DNA of 64,000 nucleotides, from positions 1 to 64,000 of the forward strand of contig NZ_LJHQ01000045.1 in assembly GCF_001295925.1 (NCBI RefSeq). The letters run 5' to 3'. How positions within the stretch are numbered: position 1 is the stretch's first letter; each line of letters opens with the position of its first letter. The position numbers and the translations under genes were made by a program. Source of the DNA: Allobosea sp. AAP35 (GTDB taxonomy: Bacteria; Pseudomonadota; Alphaproteobacteria; Rhizobiales; Beijerinckiaceae). Under the pieces are notes generated by a model. It was not told where the DNA came from, searched no databases, and saw only the letters and a list, made by a program, of their open reading frames with translations. Of this stretch, positions 5,582 through 23,355 are shown piece by piece.

Positions 5582-5653
5582 CGTGACCAGCCAGGGTGCC
5601 TCAACGGCCCGCGCAGGCGCAGCGGATCGTCGTGATTGCGGGGCGTGCAGGCG

Positions 5654-6166
5654 ATGGCGAAGAAGCCCAAGACCGACGAAGACGGCGCGGCGGAAGCCGC
5701 CCCAGCCGCAGGCGGCGGCAAGAAGAAGCTGATGATGATCATCGGCGGCGTGGTGCTGCTGGCGGCGCTCGGCGGCGGCGGCTGGTTCTTTTTCCTGAAG
5801 AAGCCCTCGGCCGAGCAGGTCGCCGCGCTCGAAGCCGCCAAGAACGCCAAGAAGCCGGTCAACTTCATCGAGATGAAGGACATGGTGATCGGCATCACCA
5901 GCGGCCCCCAGCAGGAGCGCCAGCCCATGATCAAGATCAAGGTCGTGCTCGAAACCGCCGACGCGAAGATCTCCGAGGAGATCAAGCCGCTGCTGCCGCG
6001 CGTCGAGGACGCCTTCCAGGTCTTCATGCGCGAATTGCGCACCTCCGATCTCGAGGGTTCGGCCGGCATGTACCGCCTCAAGGAAGAGCTTTTGCGCCGC
6101 GTCAACGTGACGGTCTTCCCGGCCAAGGTCGATGCGGTGCTGTTCAAGGAGTTGCTGGTTCAGTGA
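5654..6166 (+). CDS. fliL: Flagellar basal-body-associated protein FliL
   Basis: Inner-membrane protein that surrounds the stator and supports torque. 170 residues from the ATG at 5654. A TTG 18 nt upstream is in frame but is a weaker choice. A short lysine/alanine-rich cytoplasmic N-terminus is followed by one transmembrane segment (LMMIIGGVVLLAALGGGGWFF) and a periplasmic stomatin-like domain with MIKIKVVLET, EIKPLLPRVEDAF and the C-terminal KEELLRRVNVTVFPAKVDAVLF motif. First gene of a plus-strand operon continuing with fliM. A perfect CtrA box precedes it. Confidence 0.94.
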   Translation: MAKKPKTDEDGAAEAAPAAGGGKKKLMMIIGGVVLLAALGGGGWFFFLKKPSAEQVAALEAAKNAKKPVNFIEMKDMVIGITSGPQQERQPMIKIKVVLETADAKISEEIKPLLPRVEDAFQVFMRELRTSDLEGSAGMYRLKEELLRRVNVTVFPAKVDAVLFKELLVQ

Positions 6167-6244
6167 GCCACCCCTCACCCGATTGAGCCGGCCTTCGGAT
6201 CATCCGACGCGACATCCAGACGTGACGAGAGCACTGACAACCCG

Positions 6245-7372
6245 ATGAGCACCAGCGACCGCGACAATGCCGGCAAGCCGGCCAAGGACGAGCCGCTGAG
6301 CCCGGAAAGCATGGCGGCCGAATGGGCCACCATGCCCGACATCGTCGAGGACGAAGGCGAACCGGAGGGCGGCGTAGACCGCCTGATGAGCCAAGACGAA
6401 ATCGACACGATGCTCGGTTTCTCGCTCGGCGACGACAAGGATGGCCGCAACGGCATCCAGGCCATCGTCGATTCCGGCTCGGTGTCCTACGAACGCCTGC
6501 CGATGCTCGAAATCATCTTCGAGCGTCTCGTCCGGCTGCTGTCGACCAGCCTGCGCAACTTCTTCACCGACAATGTCGAAGTCACGCTCGAGAGCATCCG
6601 CTCCGTGCGCTTCGGCGACTACATGAACTCGATCTCGCAGCCGGCGATGCTGTCGGTGTTCAGGGCCGAGGAATGGGACAATTTCGGCCTGGTCACGATC
6701 GAATCGGCGCTGATGTATTCGATCATGGACACGATGTTCGGCGGCAAGCGCGGCCAGCCGGCGCCCCGTGTCGACGGACGGCCCTTCACCTCGATCGAGA
6801 TCAGGCTGATCCGGCGCGTCATCGGGCTGATCCTGGCCGACGCAGAAGCCGCCTTCAAGCCGCTCTCGCCGGTGAATTTCACCATCGACCGCATCGAATC
6901 GAATCCGCGCTTCGTCTCGATTTCGCGCCCGGCCAACGCCGCCATCCGCGTCGAACTCAAATTCGACATGGAAGGCCGTGGCGGCGCGCTCCACATTCTT
7001 TTGCCCTATGCGACGATCGAGCCGATCCGGGATCTGCTGCTCGAAAGCTTCATGGGTGAGAAGCTCGGGCGCGATCCGATCTGGGAGAACCATCTCGCGA
7101 CCGAGGTCTGGCAGACTGAGGTGCCCGTGACCTGCGTGCTGCACGAGACGCAGATGCCGCTGAAGCGGATGATGAAGCTCGAGATCGGCGACACGCTGAT
7201 GTTCGACGCGCGCCCCGATTCCTTCGTTTCGCTGCGCTGCGGGGATTTCATCGTCAGCGACGGCCGCATCGGCCGGGTCGACGACAAGATCGCGGTCCAG
7301 ATCGTCAGCCCGCTGCGGCGTTCCAAGACGACGATCGCCGCCTTCGACACCAACCAGCACGGCCAACCCTGA
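6245..7372 (+). CDS. fliM: Flagellar motor switch protein FliM
   Basis: C-ring component that binds phospho-CheY and passes the switching signal to FliG. Residues 47-57 (LMSQDEIDTML) match the N-terminal CheY-binding and FliM signature. The middle CheC-like domain (about 70-260) includes GSVSYERLPMLE, SIRSVRFGDYMNS and SIMDTMFGGKRG. The C-terminal SpoA/FliN-like domain (about 290-365) carries LEIGDTLMFDARPDSFVSLRCGDF. An acidic N-terminal extension of about 45 residues is seen in related alphaproteobacteria. It starts 79 nt after fliL and 16 nt before the DUF6468-type gene. FliN and FliG are not in the window. Confidence 0.96.
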   Translation: MSTSDRDNAGKPAKDEPLSPESMAAEWATMPDIVEDEGEPEGGVDRLMSQDEIDTMLGFSLGDDKDGRNGIQAIVDSGSVSYERLPMLEIIFERLVRLLSTSLRNFFTDNVEVTLESIRSVRFGDYMNSISQPAMLSVFRAEEWDNFGLVTIESALMYSIMDTMFGGKRGQPAPRVDGRPFTSIEIRLIRRVIGLILADAEAAFKPLSPVNFTIDRIESNPRFVSISRPANAAIRVELKFDMEGRGGALHILLPYATIEPIRDLLLESFMGEKLGRDPIWENHLATEVWQTEVPVTCVLHETQMPLKRMMKLEIGDTLMFDARPDSFVSLRCGDFIVSDGRIGRVDDKIAVQIVSPLRRSKTTIAAFDTNQHGQP

Positions 7373-7388
7373 CGATAAGGCGCCCGCC

Positions 7389-7856
7389 ATGACGATCACT
7401 CTCATCGCCGATGTGCTGGTTGCCAGCCTGCTCGTCGCCACCATCATCACCTGCTTCATCCTGACCAAGCGCATCGAGCGCATGAAGGCTGACGAGGCCG
7501 GCATGCGCCAGACGGTCGGGGCCCTGATCGCGGCGACCGACACCGCCGAACGCGCCATCGCCGGGTTGAAGCTCACATTGGGCGACTGCGACCGCACGCT
7601 GGCCGAACGTCTGCAGACGGCGGAGCGCTATGCGGCCGATCTTGCCGCCCAGATCGAGGCCGGCCAGGTCGTGATGGAGCGCATCGGCCAGATCGTCAGC
7701 GCAGCCGCGCTGGTGGCGCCCAAGACGGCTGCCGAGCAGCCCGTCAACGCGTCGGCAGCCGAACCAACCCCGATTTCGCGACTCGCGAATGCGGCCCAGT
7801 CGGCCGCCGCCATCCGGGCCCGCGCCGCCCGACGGCTCGAAGGGCATGCCGCGTGA
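7389..7856 (+). CDS. Flagellar-cluster membrane protein, DUF6468-like
   Basis: Protein of 155 residues with one N-terminal transmembrane helix (LIADVLVASLLVATIITCFIL) followed by a cytoplasmic or periplasmic helical, coiled-coil-like segment (about 27-115) and an alanine-rich tail. It resembles the uncharacterised DUF6468 proteins that lie between fliM and motE-like genes in alphaproteobacteria. Its stop overlaps the start of the next gene (GTGA), which suggests translational coupling to the MotE-like protein. No biochemical role is established. Position suggests a structural or regulatory part in the motor. Confidence 0.7.
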   Translation: MTITLIADVLVASLLVATIITCFILTKRIERMKADEAGMRQTVGALIAATDTAERAIAGLKLTLGDCDRTLAERLQTAERYAADLAAQIEAGQVVMERIGQIVSAAALVAPKTAAEQPVNASAAEPTPISRLANAAQSAAAIRARAARRLEGHAA

Positions 7857-8689
7857 TCGAGCGGCCGCGCCTGCTTCCTGCCGTCATCCTCGGCGCCATG
7901 GCTCTCCTGGCGCTGAAGCTGCTGGCCTGGACGGCGGCGCCTTATCCCGGCACGATTCCGTCCCACGCGCCGATCTTCGCCTCTGAAGCGCCCAAGGCCG
8001 AAAAGCAGCCCTGGGCACTGGCCAAGATCGTCGCCCAGGCGCATGCGCCCGACCTGCCCTTCGATCCGGAGACCACGGGCTCGGTCGACAAACCCGATCC
8101 CAAGAACAATCCGGAGACGGCGGAAGCCGATGCCAAGGCCGATGCCGCCCGCGCCGCCAACCCCCTGAACAAGGCCAATATCCTGAACGGTGTGGCGGCG
8201 CCGGTCTCGCCCGCCGAACGCGCATTGCTGGAGCGGCTCGGCCAGCGGCGCGAGGAAATCGACGCGCGGATGCGCGAGCTCGAAATGCGCGAGCGCCTGC
8301 TCGACACCGCCGAGAAGAAGCTCGACAGCCGCGTCGGCGATCTGAAGGATCAGGAGACCAAGGCTGGCGGTGGGCCCGGGGCCAAGCCTGCCGGCGAGGA
8401 AACCAAGGCGATCAAGAACCTGGTCATCATGTATGAGGCGATGAAGCCCAAGGACGCCGCCCGGGTCTTCGATCGCCTCGGGCTCGATATCCTGGTGCCC
8501 GTCGTCCAGCAGATGAACCCGCGCAAGATGTCAGAAGTACTGGCCGCGATGGCGCCCGAACGGGCCGAGAAGCTCACCGTGGCGCTGGCGACGATGCCGC
8601 GCGGCCCCGCGACCGAGCGGGTCTCGCTCGATGCGGCCGCCCTCCCCGGGACCGAGCTCCCCGCGATCGCACCCGCCCCGCGCCGGTGA
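7853..8689 (+). CDS. MotE-like motor chaperone (MgtE N-terminal-like domain)
   Basis: Starts at GTG 7853, overlapping the preceding stop codon. The 278 residues have an N-terminal hydrophobic anchor or signal (about 8-28), a variable spacer to about 120, a coiled coil (about 125-165, ERALLERLGQRREEIDARM...), and a C-terminal MgtE-N-like helical domain (about 195-255) with YEAMKPKDAARVFDRLGL and MNPRKMSEVLAAMAPERA. This is the architecture of Sinorhizobium MotE, a periplasmic chaperone that folds and stabilises MotC. No classical MotC is in the window. The next gene encodes a very large exported protein that could be its client (inference). Confidence 0.75.
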   Translation: MIERPRLLPAVILGAMALLALKLLAWTAAPYPGTIPSHAPIFASEAPKAEKQPWALAKIVAQAHAPDLPFDPETTGSVDKPDPKNNPETAEADAKADAARAANPLNKANILNGVAAPVSPAERALLERLGQRREEIDARMRELEMRERLLDTAEKKLDSRVGDLKDQETKAGGGPGAKPAGEETKAIKNLVIMYEAMKPKDAARVFDRLGLDILVPVVQQMNPRKMSEVLAAMAPERAEKLTVALATMPRGPATERVSLDAAALPGTELPAIAPAPRR

Positions 8690-8779: not shown

Positions 8780-11700
8780 TTGCGTGAGTGTTCCGTTTTG
8801 CGTCTCCCGCGTTCCCTTGCCTTCGGCATCGGGCTTATCGCCCTGGCCACCGCCGCCGGTCTCGGCGCGCCGGCGCTCGCCGCCAATGCAAGCTTGCGCG
8901 GCGATGTGGTGCCGCCGGGATATGGGCGCCTGTCGCTGACCTTCGACGAACCGACACAGACACGCATCCGCGTCGCCAACGGCGTGCTGGTCGTGGCCTT
9001 CGGCACGAGCGTCAAGATCAACGTCGCCAAGATCGCCCGCGAACTGCCGGCTTACGTCTCGATCGCCCGTGTCGACCCCGACGGGCGCGGCATGCGCCTT
9101 GCCCTGGCGCAGCCCTATCGCGCCAACCTGATCGAGGTCGGCGAGCGGGTCTTCATCGATCTCCTGCCCGAGAACTGGCGCGGCCTGTTGCCGGGTCCGC
9201 CGCCCGAAGTCATCGCCGAGATGTCGGAGCGTCTGCGCGTCGCGGAGGCGCGCTCGCGCAACGCCGCCCGTCTGGAGCAGGAGCAGCGCAAGACGCTGGG
9301 CATGCGCGGCGCCAGCCTGCCGACTCTCGAACGGCTGATCTTCGACGTTCCGCCGCAAACCGCGTTGTTGCCGGTGCTGAAAGACGGTGCCCTCACGCTC
9401 ACCTTCGACCAGCCCATGACCGTCGACCCCGCCGCGATCAGAACCGCCCTGCCCGAAGGTATCTCGCTGCGCTCGCATGAAACCGGGAAAGCGGCGACGA
9501 CGCTGGTGCTGGGCCTGCCGCCGAAGTGGGAGATGCGCAGCTTCCGTGACGAGGACGGCCTCCTTCTCGACCTGCTGAAGCCTGTCGCTCCCCCGGCTGC
9601 GACCCTGGCGGCCCCCGCAGGCCCACTGCCCGCCGCCGCCCTCGCGCACCCGGCGGTCGTGCAGGGAGCCCTCGACAATGCGCCGGCCGCTGCGCCGGCG
9701 AGCGCATCCGCGCTCCAGCCCCCCGCTCCTACACCGGCCGTCATCGCTCCCCCCGTGGTCGATCCCGCCCCGCAGGCGGTGAAGATCGCGGCGGTCGGGA
9801 CGCGCCTTGACTTCCGCTTCCCGCGCGCGACCGGCGCCGCCGCCTTCGTCGAGGGCGGCGTTGCGACGCTGGCCTTCGACACACGCGACACCATCGACCC
9901 CGCCGCGCTCCAGGGGCTCCTGCCGCAGATCATCGAGGAGGCGACGGTCTCCCGCGAGAGCAGGATCGTCCTGGTGCGGTTGCGCCTTGCGGGTCAGCCG
10001 CTGACGCGGCTTTTCGACGACGGCACGACCTGGTCGCTCGGCTTCGGCGAGCAGGGCGGCAAAGCGGCCGAACCGGTGTCGCCCGCCCGCGCCATGGACG
10101 AGCAGGGCCAGACAATCGTCACTGTACCCTTGCGCGGCATGACCGGGATTCACTGGCTCGAAGTCGGCCCCTTGGGCCCGCCAATCGCCGTCGCCACCGC
10201 CACGGGACCGGTTCGGGTCACCGCCAAACCGTATCGCTTCGTCGAATTCAGCCTGGTACCGACCCTGCACGGACTGGCCGTCGCACCCCGTTCCGACGAC
10301 GTCGTCGTGCGCGCGGGCACCGATCAGGTCCGCATCGGCCGCGCCGGCGGACTCACCGTCTCGCTCGACGTCGCAGCGCCGGAGAAGGATGGCGACAGCA
10401 AGGCGGCCGAGCTGCGCGCGCCCCTGCTCGACCCCGAACCCTGGGGCGATCTCGTTATTGGCGCCGTGCGCGACCAGGAGCGCGTGCTGCAGCGCGAGAT
10501 CGCCGGCGCCTCACGGTCTCGCAAATCCGAGACCCGTCTCGCCCTGGCGCGCTTCTACGCTGCAAATGGGCTGATGAGCGAAGCCAAGGGCCCGCTGACG
10601 GCGCTGATGGCGGATGACCCGGCGATGCGCGGCAACCGCGAGGCTCTCTTCCTGAAGGGCCTGATCGCCGCGCAGATGCACCGTCACCAGGAGGCTGCCG
10701 CCGCCTTCGAGGCGGCGCCGATCAAGGACGACCCCGACACGGTCCTGTGGCGTGCTCTCGTTGATCAGCGCCGCGGCCGCGCCACGCAGGCGATGGTTGG
10801 GTTTCGTCGCACCGAGGCCGTCCTCGATCGCTACCCGGCGGAACTGCAGGCGGAGATTCGCGTCGCCAAGGCCCGCGCGGCGCTGGCGACGCAGGACATC
10901 GCGGTCGCCGAACGCGAGATCGATGCACTTGGCCAACTGCCGGCCGGAACGGCCGATCATGAAACCCTCGATCTGCTGCGGGCCATGATCGACGACGTCG
11001 CTGGCCGGCCAGACAACGCCCTGGCCGGCTATAAGCCGCTGTTCGAGGCCAAGAGCCGCCCGGTGGCGGCGGAAGCGCAGCTGCGCGCGGTCAAGCTGGT
11101 CCAGGCCGAGAAGCGCGCCGACATCGGCCCCGAGGAGGCTCTCGCCAGGCTCGAGACGGTCTCGATCATCTGGCGCGGCGGCGAACTGGAAATCGAGGCG
11201 CTGAGCGAACTCGGCCGTCTCTATGCCGATGCGCAGCGCTGGCGCGACGCCTTCATGGTTGCGCGTCGGGCGTCCGAAAGCTTCCCCGAGCATCAGCTGA
11301 CACGCCGCATGCAGGACGAGACGGCGCAGCGCTTCGCCGATCTCTTCAGCGGCGACAGCCTCGACCAGCTGCCGCGCCTTGAGGCACTGGCGCTGTTCTA
11401 CGATTTCAAGGAGTTCCTTCCCATCGGCCGGCGCGGCGACGAGATCACGCGTCTTCTCGCCGACCGCCTGATCGGCCTTGATCTGCTCGATCAGGCGAGC
11501 GACATCCTGCGCCATCAGATCGAGCGACGCCTGACCGGAGCAGCGCGGTCCACCGTCGCGGCGCGGCTGGCGATGGTCAACCTGATGAACGCCAAGCCGG
11601 CGGAGGCCTTGCGCGCGCTGAACACGACGCGCCTCGTCGAGCTGCCCGGTGACGTCAAGCGCGCCCGCCTGCTGCTCGAAGCCAAGGCGCTGTCGGATCT

Positions 11701-12256
11701 GTCGCGCACGGATCAGGCGATGGACCTGCTCGAATCCGAGCGCGGCCCCGAGATCGACCGCTTGCGTGCCGACATCTTCTGGACCGGACGCCGCTGGCGC
11801 GAGGCCGGCGAGGCGCATGAGCGCATCCTCGACGAAGCCTGGCGCGGCGAGAAGCCGCTGAGCGACGGCCAGCGCGCCGACGTCATGCGCGCCGCCATCT
11901 CCTATGTCATGTCCGACGAGGCGCTCTCGCTCGACCGGCTGCGCAGCAAATTCGCCGGCAAGATGGCGCAGAGCAGCGATGCGCGCACCTTCGCCTTCGT
12001 CACCGGAGCCAACCGGACCAAATCGGCCGATATCCGCGAGATGGCCCGCGCTGCCGCCGCTGCCGGCGCCGATACGCTGTCTGATTTCATGCAGGCCTAT
12101 CGCGAGCGCTACCCGGCCATTTCCGCCGCCGCGCGCCAGAACAAGCCGGACGCGCCCGCCCTGCCGCCCTCCACCGAGCCGCCGGCAGCACCCACGCCGA
12201 CCCCGGCCGGCGCCGAGGCCGATGCGGCACCGCCAGCCCCGCCCGGGCGCAGCTGA
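8780..12256 (+). CDS. Large exported protein with AMIN-like repeats and TPR-like helices
   Basis: A 1158-residue protein with a Sec signal (SLAFGIGLIALATAAGLGAPALA). Three similar beta-rich segments follow at about 45-135, 190-265 and 335-425, each with an 'LTLTFDxP...' core and a closing 'LLLDLL'-like strand. They resemble AMIN domains. Proline/alanine-rich linkers separate them. From about 555 to 1110 it is alpha-helical with TPR-like pairs (LARFYAANGLMSEAKGPL, EALFLKGLIAAQMHRHQEAAAAFE). The tail is proline/alanine-rich. The start is either TTG 8780 or TTG 8798; neither has a clear ribosome site. It follows the MotE-like gene by 90 nt and is tail-to-tail with fliP. A periplasmic motor-scaffold role like that of PflA is plausible but only inferred. 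Confidence 0.7.
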   Translation: MRECSVLRLPRSLAFGIGLIALATAAGLGAPALAANASLRGDVVPPGYGRLSLTFDEPTQTRIRVANGVLVVAFGTSVKINVAKIARELPAYVSIARVDPDGRGMRLALAQPYRANLIEVGERVFIDLLPENWRGLLPGPPPEVIAEMSERLRVAEARSRNAARLEQEQRKTLGMRGASLPTLERLIFDVPPQTALLPVLKDGALTLTFDQPMTVDPAAIRTALPEGISLRSHETGKAATTLVLGLPPKWEMRSFRDEDGLLLDLLKPVAPPAATLAAPAGPLPAAALAHPAVVQGALDNAPAAAPASASALQPPAPTPAVIAPPVVDPAPQAVKIAAVGTRLDFRFPRATGAAAFVEGGVATLAFDTRDTIDPAALQGLLPQIIEEATVSRESRIVLVRLRLAGQPLTRLFDDGTTWSLGFGEQGGKAAEPVSPARAMDEQGQTIVTVPLRGMTGIHWLEVGPLGPPIAVATATGPVRVTAKPYRFVEFSLVPTLHGLAVAPRSDDVVVRAGTDQVRIGRAGGLTVSLDVAAPEKDGDSKAAELRAPLLDPEPWGDLVIGAVRDQERVLQREIAGASRSRKSETRLALARFYAANGLMSEAKGPLTALMADDPAMRGNREALFLKGLIAAQMHRHQEAAAAFEAAPIKDDPDTVLWRALVDQRRGRATQAMVGFRRTEAVLDRYPAELQAEIRVAKARAALATQDIAVAEREIDALGQLPAGTADHETLDLLRAMIDDVAGRPDNALAGYKPLFEAKSRPVAAEAQLRAVKLVQAEKRADIGPEEALARLETVSIIWRGGELEIEALSELGRLYADAQRWRDAFMVARRASESFPEHQLTRRMQDETAQRFADLFSGDSLDQLPRLEALALFYDFKEFLPIGRRGDEITRLLADRLIGLDLLDQASDILRHQIERRLTGAARSTVAARLAMVNLMNAKPAEALRALNTTRLVELPGDVKRARLLLEAKALSDLSRTDQAMDLLESERGPEIDRLRADIFWTGRRWREAGEAHERILDEAWRGEKPLSDGQRADVMRAAISYVMSDEALSLDRLRSKFAGKMAQSSDARTFAFVTGANRTKSADIREMARAAAAAGADTLSDFMQAYRERYPAISAAARQNKPDAPALPPSTEPPAAPTPTPAGAEADAAPPAPPGRS

Positions 12257-13206: not shown

Positions 13207-14709
13207 TCACGGCCGCGGCTTGGGATCGCGTCCCAGCAGACGCGCAAATTCCGCCTCGATCGCATCGACCGAAAACGGGTCGATGGGCTTGGGCGCACTT
13301 TCGGCTTCGTGCTCCGGCTGGGTTGCTGGATCAGGCTCGGACGCGGGCGGGGGCGCAGGCGACGCATCCGCCACAGGCTCGAACTCCTGGAACGGCTCGC
13401 CGGACGCCCCGTCATCATCCGCAGGTGCATCCGCAGGCGTCGGCGCCGTCAGGGCTGCCTCATCGCCGATCCGCCGGATGTCCCCTCCATCCGACAGGGG
13501 CACGGGCGGCTCCGCCACTGGCGCCGCCGCCGGCTTGAATACGGCAGGCGCTGCAGCGGCCTCGGCCTCGCGCATCACCACCGGTTCAACATCCGCCGGC
13601 CGATGGGACACCACAGGCAGCGGCGCGGGCGCCGGCGGCTTGGGGCTGGTGCGCTCGGGCTTCAGGCCCAGCGCCAGTTCCAACTCGGCCTCGACATCGA
13701 GCGGCACGATCCGCGCGGCCGGCGGCGAAGCGGGAATGGGCGGCGGAGACATGAGCGGCGGAGACATGGGCGGCGCAGACACGGGCGGCGCAGACATGGT
13801 CGATGCCGCGACCGGATCCAACCGTGTGGGGGGAGCCACCGGCGGGGCGGGCAGGTCCAGCTTGACCGCAGATTCGGTCTCGACCGGAAGATTGGCCTGC
13901 GCCTGGGAGGGTCGAACCGCCGAGAACGGTCGCTTCAGAGCCTCGTCGAGCTGGCGCGCCATATCGTCGAGTTCGCCTGCGCTGGCGGTCGGTGCCGGCG
14001 CGTGGTCGCGCGTGAAATTCGGGGTCGGCATCGACGATGCCGGGGCGGCCGGCGCGGGCTGCGCCCTGGACGAGGCCGCGAGCACGGCGCTGCCCCCTGC
14101 CGCCGCTGCGACGGCAGCTTCTGCCTGCGTCAGCGTCTGCATGGGGCGCGGGGCCGAGCGCACCGGCGGCGGCGGGGCCTCGCCTGCCATCGGGACTTGT
14201 GCAACCGGGGCCGGCGGCGCGCGGCGCATGTCCTCGGCATTATCCTGACGTGAAGGCTCCTGACGCGAAGACTCCTGGCGCAGCGGCTCTTGGCGGGGCG
14301 GCTCCTGGCGAGGCGCATCCTGCGGCACCAGCGTGTCGAACGGCAGCGGGCGGTCGGGCAGCCCGATGTCGGGCGAAGCCTGCATCGGCGTCCGCGCCCC
14401 GCTGCGCAAGATATTGGTCTCGATGACGACGTCGGAGGCACCACCGATCATCACCAGATGCTCGACATTGTCGCGCCGGATCAGGATGAGCTGACGCTGG
14501 CGGTCGAGATCGTGGATGTCGACGACGCCGAGCCGGGGCTGCCGCGTGCGGCCCCCGCCCTGCCCCTTCAGCCGCAGCCGGCCATCCTTGATCTGCCGCG
14601 CAAACAGCCCCAGCAGCACGAGCAGCACCAGGATGACGCCAAAAGCGATGACCCACTTCTGCGCGGTGGGAAGATCGAAGCCAAACAAGCTCTGCAAGGT
14701 CTGCCTCAT
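13207..14709 (-). CDS. fliO: FliO-like flagellar export protein with a giant proline-rich tail
   Basis: The first 110 residues are typical FliO: one transmembrane helix (about 19-37, WVIAFGVILVLLVLLGLFA), basic residues, then the beta-rich core LGVVDIHDLDRQRQLILIRRDNVEHLVMIGG. FliO helps assemble the FliP ring. The remaining 390 residues are low-complexity proline/alanine-rich sequence, including five RQEP/RQES/RQDN-type repeats (about 155-185) and clustered MSAPPV/MSPPLM repeats (about 305-325), ending in a more ordered acidic segment (EAEFARLLGRDP). Usual FliO is 100-150 residues. Upstream, a perfect CtrA box at 14843-14858 lies between this gene and divergent flgB. Confidence 0.85.
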   Translation of the reverse strand: MRQTLQSLFGFDLPTAQKWVIAFGVILVLLVLLGLFARQIKDGRLRLKGQGGGRTRQPRLGVVDIHDLDRQRQLILIRRDNVEHLVMIGGASDVVIETNILRSGARTPMQASPDIGLPDRPLPFDTLVPQDAPRQEPPRQEPLRQESSRQEPSRQDNAEDMRRAPPAPVAQVPMAGEAPPPPVRSAPRPMQTLTQAEAAVAAAAGGSAVLAASSRAQPAPAAPASSMPTPNFTRDHAPAPTASAGELDDMARQLDEALKRPFSAVRPSQAQANLPVETESAVKLDLPAPPVAPPTRLDPVAASTMSAPPVSAPPMSPPLMSPPPIPASPPAARIVPLDVEAELELALGLKPERTSPKPPAPAPLPVVSHRPADVEPVVMREAEAAAAPAVFKPAAAPVAEPPVPLSDGGDIRRIGDEAALTAPTPADAPADDDGASGEPFQEFEPVADASPAPPPASEPDPATQPEHEAESAPKPIDPFSVDAIEAEFARLLGRDPKPRP

Positions 14710-22269: not shown

Positions 22270-23355
22270 GTGAGTCAGGCGAATCTCAAATTGGTGGAAG
22301 GGTCCTCGATGGACAAGGCCAAGGCGCTGGATGCGGCGCTCTCGCAGATCGAGCGCGCCTTCGGCAAGGGCTCGATCATGCGGCTGGGCAAGAACCAGCA
22401 GGCAGTCGAGATCGAGACGATTTCGACCGGATCGCTCGGGCTCGACATCGCGCTCGGCGTCGGCGGCCTGCCGCGCGGCCGCGTCATCGAGATCTACGGG
22501 CCGGAATCCTCCGGCAAGACCACGTTGGCGCTGCACACCATCGCCGAAGCCCAGAAGAAGGGCGGCGTCTGCGCCTTCGTCGATGCCGAGCACGCGCTCG
22601 ATCCCGTCTATGCCCGCAAGCTCGGCGTCAATCTCGACGATCTCCTGATCTCGCAGCCCGACACTGGCGAGCAGGCGCTCGAGATCACCGATACGCTCGT
22701 CCGCTCCGGCGCGATCGACGTTCTGGTGGTCGATTCGGTCGCCGCGCTGACCCCGCGCGCCGAGATCGAGGGCGAGATGGGCGATGTCCAGCCCGGCCTC
22801 CAGGCCCGCCTGATGAGCCAGGCCCTGCGCAAGCTGACGGCGTCGATCTCGCGCTCGAACTGCATGGTCATCTTCATCAACCAGATCCGCATGAAGATCG
22901 GTGTGATGTATGGCTCGCCTGAGACCACCACCGGCGGCAACGCGCTGAAGTTCTACGCCTCCGTGCGCCTCGACATCCGCCGCGTCGCGACGCTCAAGGA
23001 TCGCGAGGAGGCCACCGGCAACCAGGTCCGCGTCAAGGTCGTCAAGAACAAGGTCGCGCCGCCCTTCAAGCAGGTCGAGTTCGACATCATGTTCGGCGAG
23101 GGCATCTCCAAGGTCGGCGAGCTCGTCGATCTCGGCGTCAAGGCCGGCATGGTCGAGAAGTCGGGCGCCTGGTTCTCTTTCGACAGCCAGCGCCTCGGCC
23201 AGGGCCGCGAGAACGCCAAGGCCTTCCTCAAGGCCAACCCCGAAATGGCCGCCAAGATCGAGGCGACGATCCGCCAGAACTCCGGCCTCGTCGCCGAGCG
23301 CATCCTCGACGAGGCGACGCCCAGCGCCGACGATCTCGACGAGGGCGAGGCCTGA
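22270..23355 (+). CDS. recA: Recombinase RecA
   Basis: ATP-dependent strand-exchange protein and SOS co-protease, 361 residues from a GTG start preceded by an AAGGAG ribosome site. The Walker A motif GPESSGKT is at 77-84. Other RecA signatures are [35 protein letters not shown], the DNA-binding loops and [35 protein letters not shown]-type sequence. The acidic C-terminus is typical. Single-gene unit with a LexA box upstream and a terminator at 23544. Confidence 0.98.

Follow-up and report, generated by a model that had tools for sequence, protein, structure and literature searches.

The window analysed here, the 64,000-nucleotide stretch from contig NZ_LJHQ01000045.1 of Allobosea sp. AAP35, contains an open reading frame (ORF) for a 1158-residue protein (positions 8780 to 12256) next to flagellar motor genes. 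The product is very probably an alphaproteobacterial motor spoke of the MotK/FssB type, in a long form with three AMIN-like domains. By analogy with these relatives, we infer that in Bosea it serves the same role as they do, that of a spoke or stator scaffold acting with the E-ring protein MotE. The computed evidence comprises synteny, the layout of the domains, a distribution that goes with flagella, and homology to MotK-type proteins in the tetratricopeptide repeat (TPR) part as well as in the AMIN part; a requirement for rotation (MotK, FssB) and an interaction with MotE and MotB2 (MotK) are known for the relatives only.

MotK, from the Fla2 system of Cereibacter sphaeroides, is a periplasmic AMIN and TPR protein that is required for rotation and binds MotE and MotB2 (PMC10954123, 2024; this and all other papers are cited from the parts of their text that were available). 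In Caulobacter crescentus, the gene of FssB (CC_2058), a protein with a signal peptide and TPRs, adjoins the MotE gene CC_2059, and its loss leaves flagella paralysed, with filaments seen (PMC7885107, 2021). From predicted structures, MotE has been equated with the E-ring proteins FlgY and FlbB, and MotC, MotK and CC_2058 with PflA and FlcB (PMC11870540, 2025 preprint; PMC13023049, 2026 review). These four papers already describe MotE working with an AMIN and TPR partner other than MotC, and the initial annotation of the window was mistaken in calling the presumed periplasmic structure undescribed. What the present analysis adds is modest: the class-wide triple-AMIN form, a control-backed sequence link to MotK-type proteins and the way in which the family alternates with MotC. 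By sequence it connects proteins that the cited papers link through predicted structure and gene order, notably MotK-type proteins with the class-wide triple-AMIN family.

Relationship to MotK-type proteins

Profile comparisons were made with hhalign between an alignment of the family (A1), one of MotK-type proteins (A4, 20 of the 25 frames fetched) and one of MotC (A2, 13 frames, some cut at the ends of stretches), with 20 HemY sequences as an unrelated TPR control. A4 aligned with A1 collinearly along the TPR region (99.7%, E 1.5e-25), as against 51.7% (E 1.5e-4) for HemY. The AMIN domain of MotK-type proteins matched AMIN-like domain 2 of the window protein with a probability of 98.1% (E 9e-14), domain 1 with 88.5% (E 2.7e-6) and domain 3 with 10.1% (E 0.003). 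Because the TPR match lies far above the HemY control and is accompanied by the AMIN match, the window protein is, as judged from sequence profiles, a member of the MotK family, MotK itself being identified by gene order. Relatives of one of these MotK-type proteins (from genome G142) occur in 80 of 120 genomes of one family sampled.

The window protein resembles Cereibacter MotK in being a presumably exported AMIN and TPR protein encoded together with fliL, a DUF6468 gene (pflI) and motE. It differs in size and composition: MotK has one AMIN domain and about 650 residues (PMC10954123), and the first two MotK-type proteins read have 747 and 764 residues, against 1158 residues, three AMIN-like domains and a fourth beta domain here. 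The likeness to FssB (a signal peptide there and a signal-like start here, TPRs, gene adjacent to that of MotE) is drawn from the published description (PMC7885107).

The number of AMIN domains across the family ranges from none to three (96 frames counted, some cut by contig ends). At the short end stands a 548-residue TPR-only relative on the Erythrobacter aureus plasmid NZ_CP031358.1 (L190:8950-10596), which matches the family profile at E 7.5e-68 and carries the annotation "hypothetical protein". It follows fliL, fliM, DUF6468 and MotE genes and two small genes, one of them on the opposite strand; its annotated start, which lacks a signal peptide, may be misplaced. A 592-residue form in genome G177 has a signal-like start and lies downstream of MotE.

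Domain architecture and resemblance to PflA

An AlphaFold2 model of the protein alone (mean predicted local distance difference test score 81.6, predicted template modelling score 0.47) shows four beta domains followed by a superhelix of TPR-like helices spanning about 570 residues (Table 1), behind an N-terminus that on inspection is hydrophobic and signal-like. Beta domains 1 to 3 are mutually homologous, with hhalign probabilities of 95.7-97.6% and E values from 9e-9 to 4e-12. The three AMIN-like repeats and the TPR helices proposed in the initial annotation are thereby borne out. The fourth beta domain, which is present in the family alignment, gave no relative when its profile was compared with domains 1-3 and the MotK AMIN; no search was made with this domain alone.

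Among 350,542 PDB chains searched with Foldseek, the top match was 9hmf_K, a Campylobacter periplasmic scaffold (E 1.3e-10 over 877 alignment columns), and the next were generic TPR proteins at 6e-8 and worse. Entry 9HMF is described in PMC12222027, and the chain is probably PflA, since its length of 773 equals residues 16-788, the mature form named as a construct in PMC11870540. This agrees with the PflA-like design suggested in the initial annotation and supports a protein that works like PflA more than one that is PflA. Campylobacter jejuni PflA likewise has an N-terminal AMIN-like beta sandwich, a linker and a TPR superhelix (PMC12222027, PMC11870540), and it works with the MotE homologue FlgY (PMC11870540). 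It differs in having one AMIN-like domain, against three here, and a rim-forming partner, PflB; the two proteins were compared by structure only. According to the available text of PMC11870540, no PflB was found beside most single-copy TPR proteins.

Other structure searches were less specific. The single-sequence search of solved structures returned chance subtilisin matches in the low-complexity linker only; the family profile retrieved TPR proteins, designed ones among them, and gave a weak match to PilQ (E 0.42). The N-terminal AMIN domains of PilQ (3jc8) align with window residues 34-421 in a VIA alignment; the window protein differs in that Pfam detects no secretin domain in it.

The locus

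The start codon is a TTG, either that at 8780 or possibly another in the same frame at 8798. It is not a chance ORF, since relatives of 31-80% identity align along most of their length; 51 relative loci were named, those of Bosea being 60-80% identical. In the genome (4.46 Mb, 83 contigs) it is the single match to itself. Pfam and NCBIfam flagellar models gave no match to it, the weak matches obtained being mostly TPRs, and the statement that it matches no standard flagellar component holds, as does its placement behind genes for FliM, a DUF6468-like and a MotE-like protein (ORF check, Pfam and NCBIfam). The MotE-like protein narrowly misses the Pfam cut-off for MgtE_N.

The gene belongs to a fliL, DUF6468 (pflI) and motE cluster (5636-8689), and the order MotE, then family gene, agrees with the published order CC_2059, CC_2058; DUF6468 was also found in the control genome Caulobacter vibrioides. 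The window differs from the published Cereibacter order (PMC10954123) in that motA, which there stands between motE and motK, is absent from this position, and in that fliL is separated from the DUF6468 gene by fliM. Downstream, fliP is convergent. Matches to MotB_plug sit on two other contigs of the genome.

In several Bosea relatives, motE and the family gene are separated by up to about 3 kb (L003:6425-7986, L004:6772-7977, L025:5055-8001), compared with 90 bases in the window.

Distribution with flagella

The family was searched in 289 genomes of the class with profile A1 and in 121 genomes of the order with a single-sequence query. Judging by the kinship of Bosea, we take these samples to represent the Alphaproteobacteria and the Hyphomicrobiales/Rhizobiales, respectively; the counts ignore relatedness. 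In the class, 152 genomes had the family, 168 had FlgI and 143 had both; in the order, the numbers were 74, 89 and 73. The family thus follows flgI (Fisher p 2e-43 in the class and 6e-16 in the order, uncorrected for relatedness). A wide spread among non-flagellated bacteria, which the initial annotation had named as counter-evidence to its proposal, was not seen: 9 of the 121 FlgI-negative class genomes, as against 143 of the 168 FlgI-positive ones, and 1 of the 32 FlgI-negative order genomes carry the family. DUF6468 was found in 149 of the 289 class genomes, together with the family in 139, and it is present in five of the nine FlgI-negative carriers. In a plasmid collection, 2 of 72,556 records matched.

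MotC as a possible alternative occupant

Every one of the 89 FlgI-positive order genomes has the family (73), MotC (18) or both (2). The 16 without the family all have MotE in the stretch that carries flgI (by a profile refined over these loci in three iterations), and all have MotC by NCBIfam model NF009442; of the 18 order genomes that this model matched, one exceeds its strict cut-off. MotC directly follows MotB in 14 of the 16, with Pfam confirming MotB in two and NCBIfam confirming MotC in three; in the other two genomes (G022, G030) it lies outside the stretches read. The remaining two MotC genomes, G035 and G119, are the only ones with both proteins. Both carry flgI twice, with the family gene near one copy and MotC near the other, at distances of about 10-27 kb.

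The same model matched in none of the 289 genomes from the rest of the class, in a search in which no control matched, though the model did match in the order. As the initial annotation had stated for the window, no MotC was detected (whole genome, E 0.001), and the NCBIfam MotC/PRK12798 models do not match the window protein. With the family class-wide and MotC limited to 18 of 121 order genomes and 0 of 289 class genomes, MotC looks like a lineage-specific replacement within the order, and the family is the wider and probably the older occupant. We found no statement of this alternation in the literature searched; the supplementary tables of PMC11870540, beyond the text available, may list such proteins.

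A review calls MotC and MotK homologues (PMC13023049). A profile match between MotC and the family appeared suggestive (49.9%, E 1.6e-4) and was discarded as evidence of homology because HemY scored the same against A1; the published statement is thus not backed by sequence profiles here. MotK-type proteins matched MotC at 24.6% (E 8e-4), and the comparisons with HemY were weaker for both MotK-type proteins (2.8%, E 0.016) and MotC (2.6%, E 0.018), so that a distant link between MotK and MotC is possible. From sequence, MotC could be either a reduced member of the family or a TPR protein of separate descent. MotC of Sinorhizobium meliloti is an exported TPR protein working with MotE, as is presumed of the window protein. 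MotC differs in its gene position after motB and in its model, which is all-helical (390 residues, mean score 86.5) with no beta domain. In a structure search this model matched generic TPR structures, the best at E 1.9e-3, and none of the 50 matches listed was a chain of the Campylobacter scaffold.

In four rhizobial families (f29, f45, f18, f36), the TPR part of MotC is preceded by a long low-complexity extension, probably disordered, that adds at least a few hundred residues at the N-terminus (Table 1).

Alternative explanations

Several observations weigh against a spoke of the MotK/FssB type. The link to MotK relies on proteins recognised by gene order, without comparison with the Cereibacter MotK sequence itself, and that to FssB on gene position and published description rather than sequence comparison. 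The template modelling scores to 9hmf_K are low (0.14/0.19, root-mean-square deviation 38.5), perhaps through differing curvature of long superhelices; 9hmf, an alpha-carbon trace, does not appear in the 50 matches that the VIA alignment listed. Of 97 loci (L001 and L072-L074 being omitted as repeats of the window or other loci), 74 extend 900 bases or more upstream of the family frame, and only 32 of these have a same-strand MotE no further than 400 bp upstream; in the other 42 it is found elsewhere in the stretch in 19 and nowhere in the stretch in 23. Four FlgI-negative carriers (G147, G335, G341, G369) lack DUF6468 too. Genome G116, in which MotC gave no match, has two full flgI copies (C1:83745, C2:1245), the second near a contig end, but only one family gene; a second flagellar system with no spoke found is possible.

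Finally, 25 FlgI-positive class genomes gave no family match. In sixteen of them MotE, too, gave no match at a threshold of E 0.01 (including G128, G132, G261, G264, G269, G328, G331, G359 and G362); four of these (G187, G232, G276, G373) have weak FlgI matches only (E 3e-13 to 9e-4) and may not be flagellated. MotE and its spoke thus seem to have been lost, or never present, jointly. Among the nine that have MotE, G142 and G370 have MotK-type proteins and G177 the short member noted above, missed by the search. In G302, G230 and G271, profiles A1 and A2 were empty in the stretch read, a weak negative since A1 misses MotK-type proteins too; a lactone oxidase gene directly follows motE in G302. 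In G333 and G248 contig ends are close by.

Could the protein instead be a client folded by MotE which, as a MotC-like regulator, merely opens or activates MotB, with no spoke or ring? We consider this unlikely, although it has points in its favour: a chaperone role was proposed in the original MotE-MotC work, as told in PMC10954123, and MotC and the family alternate across the order genomes. However, 17 of the 19 members of the MotE alignment match the NCBIfam model of the spirochaete collar protein FlbB (best 2e-11), and in Cereibacter MotE-sfGFP localises without MotK (PMC13023049), a review that argues MotE to be the E-ring itself. Moreover, the domain layout and the top structural match point to a scaffold protein. 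The initial annotation was right about the MotE neighbour, and the purely folding role that it gave MotE is doubtful.

That the protein, linked to peptidoglycan, has a positioning or envelope role at the flagellar pole rather than one in the stator is improbable. AMIN domains bind peptidoglycan elsewhere (AmiC, cited in PMC10954123) and the neighbouring DUF6468 gene stands in place of the Cereibacter flagellar positioning gene pflI (PMC10954123), but loss of the relatives MotK and FssB paralyses flagella, the filaments being seen in the case of FssB (PMC10954123, PMC13023049, PMC7885107). Least credible of all is a generic TPR protein that happens to lie near flagellar genes, for although Pfam finds only weak TPRs and TPR profiles readily cross-match, as the HemY control illustrates, the distribution follows flgI and MotK-type proteins match far better than that control does.

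Proposed mechanism

As a spoke of the MotK/FssB type, the protein would be exported to the periplasm and lie between the MotE ring and the stator, where its AMIN domains might reach peptidoglycan or neighbouring spokes. It would contact MotE and MotB, as its relative MotK does MotE and MotB2.

A broader picture, which we put forward tentatively and which may well prove wrong, is that, where alphaproteobacterial motors keep MotE, its E-ring offers a single spoke slot that must be filled, with one occupant per flagellar system. The ancestral occupant would have been a triple-AMIN TPR protein of this family, which in some lines was cut down to a single AMIN (MotK) or lost all of them (Erythrobacter, G177) and was displaced in several rhizobial families by MotC, be it unrelated or diverged beyond recognition; the three AMIN arms and the fourth beta domain could replace the PflB rim. 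This scheme would have to account for G116, where one family gene goes with two copies of flgI. The family-or-MotC pattern makes the question of what MotE holds testable by swapping occupants.

Feature coordinates and further observations

Table 1. Features of the window and, in the last five rows, MotC loci with N-terminal extensions in other genomes.
Feature	Position	Strand	Basis
Predicted MotK/FssB-family protein, 1158 aa, long triple-AMIN form	8780..12256	+	
Signal-peptide-like N-terminus, residues 1-34 (...GAPALAA)	8780..8881	+	read from sequence
AMIN-like domain 1, residues 35-130	8882..9169	+	AlphaFold2 model, hhalign
AMIN-like domain 2, residues 174-266	9299..9577	+	AlphaFold2 model, hhalign; best match to the one AMIN that MotK-type proteins have
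AMIN-like domain 3, residues 335-422, preceded by disordered linker 270-327	9782..10045	+	AlphaFold2 model, hhalign
Fourth beta domain, residues 436-521	10085..10342	+	AlphaFold2 model; no AMIN repeat by profile comparison
TPR superhelix, residues 552-1120	10433..12139	+	AlphaFold2 model; homologous to TPR part of MotK-type proteins by profile
fliL	5636..6166	+	PF03748, 2e-15
fliM	6245..7372	+	PF02154, 5e-58
DUF6468 gene; PflI position of Caulobacter/Cereibacter by synteny	7389..7856	+	PF20072, 6e-24
MotE (E-ring protein, FlgY/FlbB-like)	7853..8689	+	MgtE_N 8e-5, NCBIfam FlbB 0.008
Extended MotC	L132:17093-19717		
Extended MotC	L116:16418-19210		
Extended MotC	L125:4962-7883		
Extended MotC	L130:1-3126		
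Extended MotC	L126:15569-17722		

Beyond fliP, the minus strand encodes a 500-residue protein (13207-14709) that is kept in relatives and has no Pfam match; its assignment as FliF was dropped for want of such a match. The recA gene (Pfam RecA) lies at 22270-23352, about 10 kb from the family gene, and RecA-like ORFs, named by their N-termini only, are found near family or motE genes at L142:13463-14623 and L141:4900-5997.

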